The notes beneath the pieces were generated by a model. That model worked only from the letters and a program-made list of their open reading frames with translations, had not been told where the DNA came from and searched no databases. DNA of 36,334 nucleotides from Candidatus Zixiibacteriota bacterium (GTDB taxonomy: Bacteria > Zixibacteria > MSB-5A5 > RBG-16-43-9), in the NCBI GenBank assembly GCA_022865345.1, contig JALHSU010000190.1:1-36334 (forward strand), read 5' to 3'. The first letter of the stretch is position 1. Each line of letters starts with the position of its first letter. Positions 21,924 to 24,326 of the stretch are shown here, piece after piece. The position numbers and the translations under genes were made by a program.

Positions 21924-21943
21924 AGAAATAATAAGATGTAGAT

Positions 21944-21972
21944 ATAGGGGCACGGTGCACCGTGCCCCTATA
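21944..21972 (+). repeat. 12-bp stem hairpin after rpsA, possible terminator
   Basis: The arm TATAGGGGCACG pairs perfectly around the loop gtgca, 20 bases after the rpsA stop, and is followed by a T-rich stretch (ttattttc). Its outer half (TAGGGGC) is that of the GTAGGGGC repeats. It may serve as the operon terminator. A weaker GACCC/GGGTC hairpin lies at 21988-22002. Confidence 0.7.
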
Positions 21973-22064
21973 TTATTTTCGTAGTGCGACCCTTCAAGGG
22001 TCCATGAGGTCTGTAGGAGCGTTCAATCCGGGAATTGGACCCATAAGATTAAACGCCCTTACTG

Positions 22065-22541
22065 CTATTTTATAGCTAAAACTTTCTTAGGCATAAACAG
22101 ATTTAGCAAATTCTTTTTAGCCAAAATTGCCCACAAAAGGAAAGGCAAGGTTTGACTAAAAAGATAAAAAGGGACCTTGAGTTTATAATACAATGCTGAG
22201 GGTGGAATTTGGTAATCGTTGTAAAAAAGACCTACTACTACAGACAATAGTATATGGTATCCAACTAGAACAGACACTCCAATTACTAACTTTAATATTC
22301 GTTTTCCAATCTCTATGTCTTCAGTTATCAACATAAGTGAGATGAACGGTATAATATTATTGTAAAGCTCTTTAGGATACCAAAGAACTTTAATCCTCAT
22401 TCCAAAAGTCCAGAAGAGATGCTTTAAAAATCCAACGATAACCGAAAGAGAATAGCTTTCTCCTCTCCAATACCATAGAACATATAGAAATAAGGATAAA
22501 CTCAATACCTTAAGAATAAATATCTCTGGTTTCTTTTTCAT
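22065..22541 (-). CDS. Exosortase-associated membrane protein (XrtH-associated type)
   Basis: A 158-residue very hydrophobic protein with about four membrane segments: LKVLSLSLFLYVLWYW near the start, IIPFISLMLI, LVIGVSVLVGYHILLSVVVG and a last one ending LLWAILAKK. It overlaps the exosortase gene by 32 bases, so both are translated together. Position, size and the FLYVLWYW start agree with the small accessory membrane proteins that accompany exosortase H genes in other bacteria. That assignment rests on context and general resemblance, not on a catalytic motif. The DNA is markedly AT-richer than the housekeeping block upstream. No weak start alternatives are better than this ATG. Confidence 0.7.
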   Translation of the reverse strand: MKKKPEIFILKVLSLSLFLYVLWYWRGESYSLSVIVGFLKHLFWTFGMRIKVLWYPKELYNNIIPFISLMLITEDIEIGKRILKLVIGVSVLVGYHILLSVVVGLFYNDYQIPPSALYYKLKVPFYLFSQTLPFLLWAILAKKNLLNLFMPKKVLAIK

Positions 22542-23082
22542 ATTTTACAATTTTTTCTATCCAGAAAAACCAGATCCCTCCCACTATCAAAATCCCCGCA
22601 ACCTGCCAGAAGTAAATATGCATGAAATTGAAAGTTTTTGGATTCCAGTTGCCTAAAACGGAGATGAATAAAACTCTGAGTAAATTAATCAAATAAAGCA
22701 CTGGTATACCGAAAAGTATGCCTAGCAATTTCTTTTTATAATTGGCCGGAAAAGCCACGATTACAGATATTAGGATTAATATCTCAGATAATCCCAGACA
22801 ATCACTCACCACCCTAATTGACAGCTTATTCAAAGCAAGCACAGGACCGCTGGTATGAGCATTTATTCCAAAAAGATTTAGAATGAATCCCAATAAACCA
22901 GCGGTCCAGCTCGAAATTGTGACCAACTGAGAATTGAAATATGGGCTGATAAATGGATATACAAAAAAGATTATGAATAAAAACACAGGAAAAAGCAGAT
23001 AAAATCGCAGAATTTCTTTTTTTGCTTTCCTTGTTGCCTGTTTTATCTCTTGTTTTTCCTTGCGGTGTTCACTTGGTTTCAT
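22510..23082 (-). CDS. xrtH: Exosortase H-type transpeptidase (XrtH-like)
   Basis: A 190-residue polytopic inner-membrane protein with the exosortase/archaeosortase catalytic set: Cys95 in SDCLGLSEI, Arg136 in NLLRVLF and His155 in FMHIYFWQ. The stretches AFPANYKKKLLG, GNWNPKTF and HIYFWQ match what I know of exosortase H, the enzyme paired with IPTLxxWG-type C-terminal tails. It is expected to cleave or transfer proteins at a C-terminal sorting tail as they leave the membrane. The N-terminal ~23 residues are strongly basic and cytoplasmic. A candidate substrate lies 24 bases upstream in the operon and an accessory membrane protein overlaps downstream. Family membership is confident; the H subtype is likely. 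Confidence 0.87.
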   Translation of the reverse strand: MKPSEHRKEKQEIKQATRKAKKEILRFYLLFPVFLFIIFFVYPFISPYFNSQLVTISSWTAGLLGFILNLFGINAHTSGPVLALNKLSIRVVSDCLGLSEILILISVIVAFPANYKKKLLGILFGIPVLYLINLLRVLFISVLGNWNPKTFNFMHIYFWQVAGILIVGGIWFFWIEKIVKYEKETRDIYS

Positions 23083-23106
23083 AATCTTTTCCTGGACATC
23101 AATCCC

Positions 23107-23925
23107 CTACGACCGGACACCTACTACCTTTCTCTTCCAGAAAAACACCCAGGAGGCTATTGCTAAAAATACAATTATAAGACCAATAAGACCATTCTTG
23201 GTGAGGAAGGATATCATCTGTCCTCCAGAAGCAACTTGATAAGAGACGCTATCAGGGTGCTGATGACATACTGTAGCTGTATCTATAGGAACTTGACCAT
23301 GATAACAGAAATCACTCGGTAGTAAGGAGGGTGGATCCCATGCTTGTATTATAAACAATACCGCTGGAGGGGGCTGTGGCCAAACCAGTTGTATATGCTT
23401 CCATTGCCATATAAAACCATACGGCACCCAGTTAGTCCAAAATGCTTGATTGGTTTTAGTGGTTAAATTACTTAGCCTATATTGTACCTCTAAATGAGTA
23501 GCACAGAAATTGACTAATACCCAACCCGTCCTAACACTGTTTGGAGGTATAACTAATCCACCAGGGAAAAAGTTTACAGGTCCCTGTCCCCAGGCCGGAT
23601 CTCTAAGTTTTAGAAAATCTATATTTAGACTATTAACTAAGTCAGTGTTCGGTAGCCAATAATAGTACCAGTCGCAACCTGGCGCTGGAGCTTTCCCTTC
23701 TGCCGGTCCCCAGGCTGGGTCTGTTGGTGCATCTGGACCAAGCTCTTCAAGACTAACCGTTTTAGAAACCCCTGCTACAGGTTCGCGCGTGCCAAACTCC
23801 CTTTCTAACAAATCCAAATACTTCTGGGGACTTGGCTTATCATCACACCAGGTTTGCTCACCCCCTAACATCGCCCACAGGGCTATTGTGAGCATAACAA
23901 TTAAAATACGTTTTTTCGTCATCAT
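23107..23925 (-). CDS. Secreted protein with CTERM-like tail, likely dedicated exosortase substrate
   Basis: The 272-residue product has a signal peptide (RILIVMLTIALWAML). Residues ~30-235 form an unrecognised tryptophan-rich domain with several DPAWG segments and scattered cysteines (C84, C141, C207, C220). The C-terminus is tripartite: ISFLTKNG at 238-245, a membrane segment LIGLIIVFLAIASWVFFW at 246-263, and basic KRK at 264-266. Aligned with the IPTLxxWG signal the eight positions read I-S-F-L-T-K-N-G: I, L and G are kept, P and W are lost. The spacing and the WVFFWKRK end are as in such tails. Position directly ahead of the exosortase supports a dedicated target. GGAGG lies 6 bases before ATG-ATG. 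Function of the exposed domain is unknown. Confidence 0.8.
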   Translation of the reverse strand: MMTKKRILIVMLTIALWAMLGGEQTWCDDKPSPQKYLDLLEREFGTREPVAGVSKTVSLEELGPDAPTDPAWGPAEGKAPAPGCDWYYYWLPNTDLVNSLNIDFLKLRDPAWGQGPVNFFPGGLVIPPNSVRTGWVLVNFCATHLEVQYRLSNLTTKTNQAFWTNWVPYGFIWQWKHIQLVWPQPPPAVLFIIQAWDPPSLLPSDFCYHGQVPIDTATVCHQHPDSVSYQVASGGQMISFLTKNGLIGLIIVFLAIASWVFFWKRKVVGVRS

Positions 23926-23972
23926 CTTATTCCTCCTTTCTGTGTTCCAAGATGAGAACCTACATTCTTAAA

Positions 23973-23996
23973 CTAAGATGTTAAGATTGAATTCAT
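23973..23996 (-). other. Possible 7-codon leader peptide
   Basis: On the minus strand AAGGAGGTG lies 5 bases before ATG AAT TCA ATC TTA ACA TCT TAG, giving MNSILTS. The ribosome site is stronger than that of most genes in the window, and the mini-frame ends 47 bases before the substrate gene. It may be a translated leader or a relic. Confidence 0.35.
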
Positions 23997-24086
23997 AAAC
24001 ACCTCCTTGAAAATGTTAGATAAACATTCACAATACCAAACCAAATCTAAATTTTCAGAGACATAAAACCTCTTCTAAGTAATATT

Positions 24087-24222
24087 GAATTTAAGGATAA
24101 GGCTATCCACCTTATGCGGATAAAATTCAGATTCTTCGTCCTTCGGACCCAGAATAACCTGTGGAAGAAACCTTAACAAGTTTGGGCTGGGGACCTCTTT
24201 TCTTAAGGATTGTTAATCCACA
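24087..24222 (-). promoter_or_regulatory. Hairpin-rich 5' leader of the exosortase operon
   Basis: Within the ~365-base untranslated leader there are three consecutive helices. (1) GAATTT/AAATTC plus ATAAGG/CCTTAT at 24087-24128. (2) ATTCT/AGAAT plus GTCC/GGAC at 24131-24155. (3) A nested pair TGTGGA/TCCACA (24160-24165 with 24217-24222) enclosing CCTTAA/TTAAGG (24171-24176 with 24203-24208). I do not recognise a known riboswitch. Helix 2 resembles half of the repeat at 25616-25701, so part of it may be repeat-derived. Confidence 0.5.
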
Positions 24223-24297
24223 ACCTCATCCCCCAGAGGCGGGACAAAATCTTAATAAATAATAATCTCTTGTTTAGTTTTTCAAGGAATTCACCCT

Positions 24298-24326
24298 ATT
24301 TAAATCAATCTAATCCCCGTTGTCAA
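24298..24326 (-). promoter_or_regulatory. Probable sigma-70 promoter of the exosortase operon
   Basis: Minus strand: -35 TTGACA (24321-24326), spacer of 17, -10 TTAAAT (24298-24303, four of six consensus bases). An AT-rich tract lies just upstream (24327-24470). Apart from this the stretch 24327-24560 shows no gene. Confidence 0.6.

Follow-up and report, generated by a model that had tools for sequence, protein, structure and literature searches.

Three adjacent minus-strand genes of this contig likely constitute a dedicated exosortase system of the ECTG group, a sister group of exosortase H (XrtH) designated by its residues at the catalytic Cys, in which both the enzyme and its sorting signal have diverged and a single substrate remains. 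The window, meaning the whole stretch of 36,334 bases that was analysed, is one entire contig of a 2.86-Mb genome that is 96.6% complete in 275 contigs. By its named relatives, the genome is assigned to Candidatus Zixiibacteriota. In minus-strand order, the genes encode a secreted candidate substrate, here called the cargo (272 aa, 23107-23925), the exosortase (190 aa, 22510-23082), and an accessory membrane protein (158 aa, 22065-22541). The cargo and exosortase genes are 24 nt apart and the exosortase and accessory genes overlap by 32 nt, confirming the tight packing described in the initial annotation. A strong 15-bp hairpin at 21941-21974, between the accessory gene and a convergent S1-protein gene, is likely a terminator shared by the two.

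The enzyme passes both superfamily models, TIGR04178 (57.8 bits, cut-off 23) and PF09721 (54.5 bits, cut-off 25.7), and is, judged by its sequence, a member of the exosortase/archaeosortase superfamily. Cys95, Arg136, and His155, named from the start as its characteristic set, are found at those positions and do not form a chance pattern, because they are unchanged in all 52 other homologues. The AFPA, GNWNP, and HIYFWQ segments are present too, but they are common to the whole superfamily and do not on their own identify exosortase H, for whose segments they had been taken. The structure model of the enzyme is mostly helical and confident (mean pLDDT 89.7). Neither sequence nor fold searches of the PDB gave a relative of the enzyme, and a plasmid collection contained none.

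Exosortase models were matched by 22510-23082, as the initial annotation had anticipated, but the XrtH model (TIGR04177) was passed by only 1.6 bits (87.6 bits, cut-off 86), with the archaeosortase B (ArtB) model (TIGR04144) scoring higher at 96.8 bits, the best among the NCBIfam subfamily models, with its own cut-off of 150 not reached. A close relative of the enzyme in G002 scores 84.7 bits on XrtH, under the cut-off. At E up to 0.001, 62 of the 132 phylum genomes contain relatives, roughly 50 of them of the short type, and in Zixibacteria two related types can be told apart, one with GCNG (true XrtH) and the other with ECTG at the catalytic Cys. The GCNG branch comprises 16 loci in the phylum genomes; three of the four enzymes tested score 117-120 bits on XrtH and about 69-79 on ArtB, and the fourth (L126) scores 92 and 42. 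Tested members of the larger ECTG set score 85-105 bits on XrtH and 89-119 on ArtB. The frequency of ECTG is unbiased among the phylum loci, which came from a protein search, and biased among the loci from genome contigs, which came from patterns, one of them containing ECTG.

In the tree, where matches from Planctomycetota and Bacteroidota (L069, L071) proved too divergent to use and were set aside, the GCNG side is separate with support of 99/90, and the window enzyme falls on the ECTG side together with its own order. Its branch length is 0.9 against a median of 0.35. Alone among ECTG-type enzymes it reads DCLG at the catalytic-Cys segment, lacking in the alignment the Glu and Thr beside the Cys that nearly all relatives retain. 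The name exosortase H was given up, as ArtB outscores XrtH and the enzyme groups apart from the GCNG enzymes with IPTLxxWG tails. On scores and tree, its place is in an unnamed sister group of XrtH, outside XrtH proper. No biochemical work on XrtH or on the ECTG sister group was found in the literature searched.

ECTG-type enzymes occur in Myxococcota as well. An ECTG enzyme with the accessory gene was seen at L047-L050, L052, L055-L060, L063, L065-L068, and L072 (Myxococcota and unplaced Deltaproteobacteria), and no recognisable tail gene was found near these loci. Several Zixibacteria genomes have both enzyme types (L015 and L127 in G088, L016 and L133 in G047, and L026, L135, and L138 in G068), and some of them have several tail genes close to one enzyme. 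In G068 there are three short exosortases and 15 tail matches.

Linkage bears out the accessory status that had been assigned to the third gene. Neighbourhoods were read at 35 ECTG phylum loci including the window, and 33 were assessable, as L012 ends 57 bases past the enzyme and L010 has a 100-N gap from the enzyme's end. The accessory gene lies directly behind the enzyme in 33 of these 33, the window included, and at the same threshold in 0 of 16 GCNG loci. This locus count is the clean figure for the association of accessory with enzyme type, and the corresponding Fisher value is inflated because the accessory itself contributed to the typing of G012, G091, and G131. The accessory-family profile matches 37 of the 132 phylum genomes, all of which have a related enzyme, and its E-value for the window protein, 3.6e-52, is as strong as in most relatives.

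No named family for ECTG-type accessories was found in the model libraries. At canonical XrtH loci the accessory's place is taken by another membrane protein, which matches the XrtH-associated model NF041730 in 8 of 10 cases, 2 of them over the cut-off. When exosortase-associated families were compared with the window accessory, as had been suggested, there was no direct match to NF041730 (cut-off 35), but profile-profile comparison of ECTG accessories with NF041730-like proteins gave 96.9% (E 1.5e-10). The accessory is, by this comparison, a remote homologue of the XrtH-associated membrane protein. With the accessory in ECTG loci and an NF041730-like protein in XrtH loci, enzyme and accessory therefore form a conserved unit that comes in two versions. 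A relation of the accessory to exosortases as a dead paralogue received 3% probability in profile comparison and was dropped in favour of the NF041730 homology. The PDB sequence search found no relative of the accessory.

The cargo had been described as a W-rich secreted protein ending in a motif, a membrane helix, and KRK, and all of this was found. It has a signal-peptide-like N-terminus, 15 Trp, 5 Cys, and a C-terminal sorting tail (23107-23214, minus strand) consisting of ISFLTKNG (residues 238-245), a hydrophobic helix, and KRK. Pfam and NCBIfam contain no known domain for the cargo, the PDB sequence search found no relative, and no usable fold came from AlphaFold2 run on the isolated cargo (mean pLDDT 42). 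No homologue of the ectodomain occurs among 131 phylum relatives or in phage or plasmid collections, and the cargo is therefore not a conserved part of the cassette. Thus, of the self-contained three-gene cassette that was first proposed, the linked pair of enzyme and accessory stands, but the W-rich ectodomain, in no other phylum genome of the 132, does not.

Four order-level relatives (G002, G105, G106, and G109) have a tail-bearing gene immediately upstream of the enzyme gene, with ectodomains that are unrelated, and three order-level relatives have no such gene at that place. The 940-aa protein encoded just upstream of the enzyme in G109 (L006:2318-3559, L034:1859-4681) bears a tail and shows weak matches to repeat and metallopeptidase-associated domains. 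The W-rich upstream protein is very probably the substrate of the neighbouring exosortase.

The sorting tail is not IPTLxxWG, the motif with which exosortase H had been paired at first; in register with this canonical motif it reads ISFLTKNG, and the model for IPTLxxWG tails (TIGR04174) finds nothing in the genome even with E up to 10. The cargo has only one credible match in the phylum, to the tail LPIPTPTQWGLIALMLVLLAVATWGFFRRRK, with the motif IPTPTQWG, of an FG-GAP repeat protein from G109; cargo residues 240-269 are 53% identical to it over 30 residues. Against a profile of 28 type-A tails from which the window was excluded, the window tail scores 24.9 bits and would be second-lowest, the other tails having leave-one-out scores with a median of 49 and none below 23. 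When the eight motif residues were shuffled, 7 of 3000 shuffles scored as high as the real tail. From the identity and the shuffles together, the window tail is therefore a real but very divergent member.

The window tail has lost two residues conserved in most relatives, Pro and Trp/Tyr, and retains the helix and the basic end. Other type-A tails (G072, G090) also have Ser at the Pro position. Tails in ECTG genomes follow a loose [VI]P[ST]xTx[WY]G and often begin with VP, whereas those in GCNG genomes are typically [IV]PTL[STNG]EW[GA], the strict IPTLxEWG type, and 2 of 2 such tail proteins tested pass the TIGR04174 cut-off.

When the window's own genome was searched with TIGR04174, a general tail profile, the type-A tail profile, and the cargo itself, no other C-terminal tail was found. 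The tail profile works, because one of the same kind finds up to 18 tails in relatives. The tail profile matches 40 of 50 enzyme-positive and 3 of 82 enzyme-negative phylum genomes (Fisher p 8e-21, 132 genomes). Weak matches within the own genome (C260, C125, C56, C171, C141, C275, and C162) were rejected, as they have no motif or the match lies away from a C-terminus. Searching with a DNA pattern for the tail lacked specificity, with 825 matches against 701 for the reversed pattern.

The proposal of one enzyme and one substrate thus holds here, because only the cassette's own tail was found in a 96.6%-complete genome; a second substrate could be missing, since the same assembly is in 275 contigs and incomplete. 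The low tail number is not odd, because tails are also few in several ECTG genomes. The system is entirely absent from two of the three nearest genomes, and in other genomes the substrates are at unlinked places. A single target beside its sorting enzyme is a described pattern, the 'dedicated system', and single-target systems tend to be adjacent (PMC3237569). The window probably holds such a dedicated single-target exosortase system.

The region upstream of the cargo gene (23926-24326, minus strand) did not yield the operon's own promoter and leader that had been suggested. A perfect TTGACA at 24326-24321 could be a -35 element, but the -10 element is weak (TTAAAT). Promoter-like sites numbered 4 against 7.7 expected from shuffles, so they were not in excess. 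The Rfam search of the upstream region gave nothing of meaning, and its RNA folding was no better than that of shuffles (z -0.82). Downstream of the possible promoter and ahead of the cargo gene are two tiny ORFs, MNSILTS preceded by a perfect AAGGAGG (23973-23996) and MSLKI preceded by GAGG (24047-24064), both on the minus strand and each a possible leader peptide or remnant. An approximately 30-bp palindromic element in the same region, ATTCTGGGTCCGAAGGACGAAGAAT (24124-24158, minus strand), is one copy of a dispersed repeat with ten other genome copies at 87-91% identity.

Other explanations of the operon were weighed against these results. A canonical XrtH serving IPTLxxWG-CTERM proteins would agree with the XrtH score just over the cut-off and with an accessory remotely homologous to the XrtH-associated protein. 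This is largely refuted and very unlikely, as ArtB scores higher, the typical XrtH enzymes of the phylum combine high XrtH and low ArtB scores with GCNG and IPTLxEWG tails on a well-supported branch of their own, and no TIGR04174 tail is present in the window genome. It is also improbable that the W-rich protein is a mere C-tail-anchored membrane protein and that the enzyme acts on other substrates, encoded elsewhere or absent from the assembly. The degenerate motif, the incomplete assembly, and the unlinked substrates of other genomes would allow this, but the tail is in register with known tails and half identical to one of them, few motif shuffles reach its score, tail-bearing genes occupy the same slot in four order-level relatives, and the genome gave no other tail.

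Alternatively, enzyme and tail may have been drifting after the loss of other substrates, leaving a relic with little or no activity. We regard this as unlikely, although the long enzyme branch, the loss of near-invariant residues close to Cys95, the degenerate tail motif, and the absence of the system from G003 and G001 all point that way, because the three ORFs are intact with the catalytic triad kept, the accessory is as well preserved as in most relatives, and the tail retains its helix and basic end. The preferred reading is still the dedicated ECTG-type system with one remaining substrate. A more tentative proposal, possible but short of probable, is that ECTG enzymes, their unnamed partner, and the [VI]P[ST]xTx[WY]G tail make up an undescribed Zixibacteria system, and that in the window the pair has co-diverged to a new code, DCLG/ISFLTKNG.

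We envisage that the cargo of this dedicated system would be exported by the general secretion machinery and be held in the inner membrane by its C-terminal helix. On the model of archaeosortase A (ArtA), Cys95, with Arg136 and His155, would attack the ISFLTKNG tail to give an enzyme-linked intermediate. The new C-terminus would be handed to an envelope acceptor, so that the cargo is freed from its membrane stop and becomes anchored at the surface or displayed there. For ArtA, both the cleavage and the joining of the new C-terminus to a lipid have been described (PMC7157517). A surface role would fit the cargo, because an IPTL-CTERM protein of Methylomirabilis is an S-layer protein (PMC8671808). 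The accessory, a regular membrane partner of the ECTG enzyme type, is probably in the same complex. In this genome the enzyme has diverged from ECTG to DCLG, the signal has lost P and W, and one substrate remains.

To our knowledge, the determinants of exosortase specificity are little understood. If the co-divergence is true, the pair in this genome is a natural experiment on what sets this specificity. Enzyme and signal of a minimal pair would then carry matching changes, and comparison with relatives that keep the ordinary code gives a direct means of finding the residues by which the tail is recognised. The current XrtH model combines two systems that differ in tail and partner protein; automatic annotation of such genomes would therefore often call the enzyme XrtH and miss the partner and the substrates.

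Among known systems, that of XrtH (TIGR04177), IPTLxxWG-CTERM (TIGR04174), and XrtH_assoc (NF041730) similarly has a short exosortase with a partner membrane gene directly downstream and a tail made of motif, helix, and basic end, and the partners are remotely homologous. On the other hand, the window enzyme has DCLG, and its sister group ECTG, in place of GCNG at the catalytic Cys and only a borderline XrtH score, its partner is not recognised by NF041730, and its looser tail is not recognised by TIGR04174. Archaeosortase B (TIGR04144, VPXXXP-CTERM) provides the best-scoring subfamily model for the window enzyme and the ECTG relatives tested, and type-A tails often start with VP. However, the window enzyme reaches 96.8 of the 150 bits of its cut-off, the host is bacterial, and the window tail is without VPxxxP. 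Although rhombosortase is a rhomboid serine protease of an unrelated enzyme family, the system in the window resembles the dedicated rhombosortase/GlyGly-CTERM pairs (PMC3237569), in which one sorting enzyme has one adjacent target in the genome.
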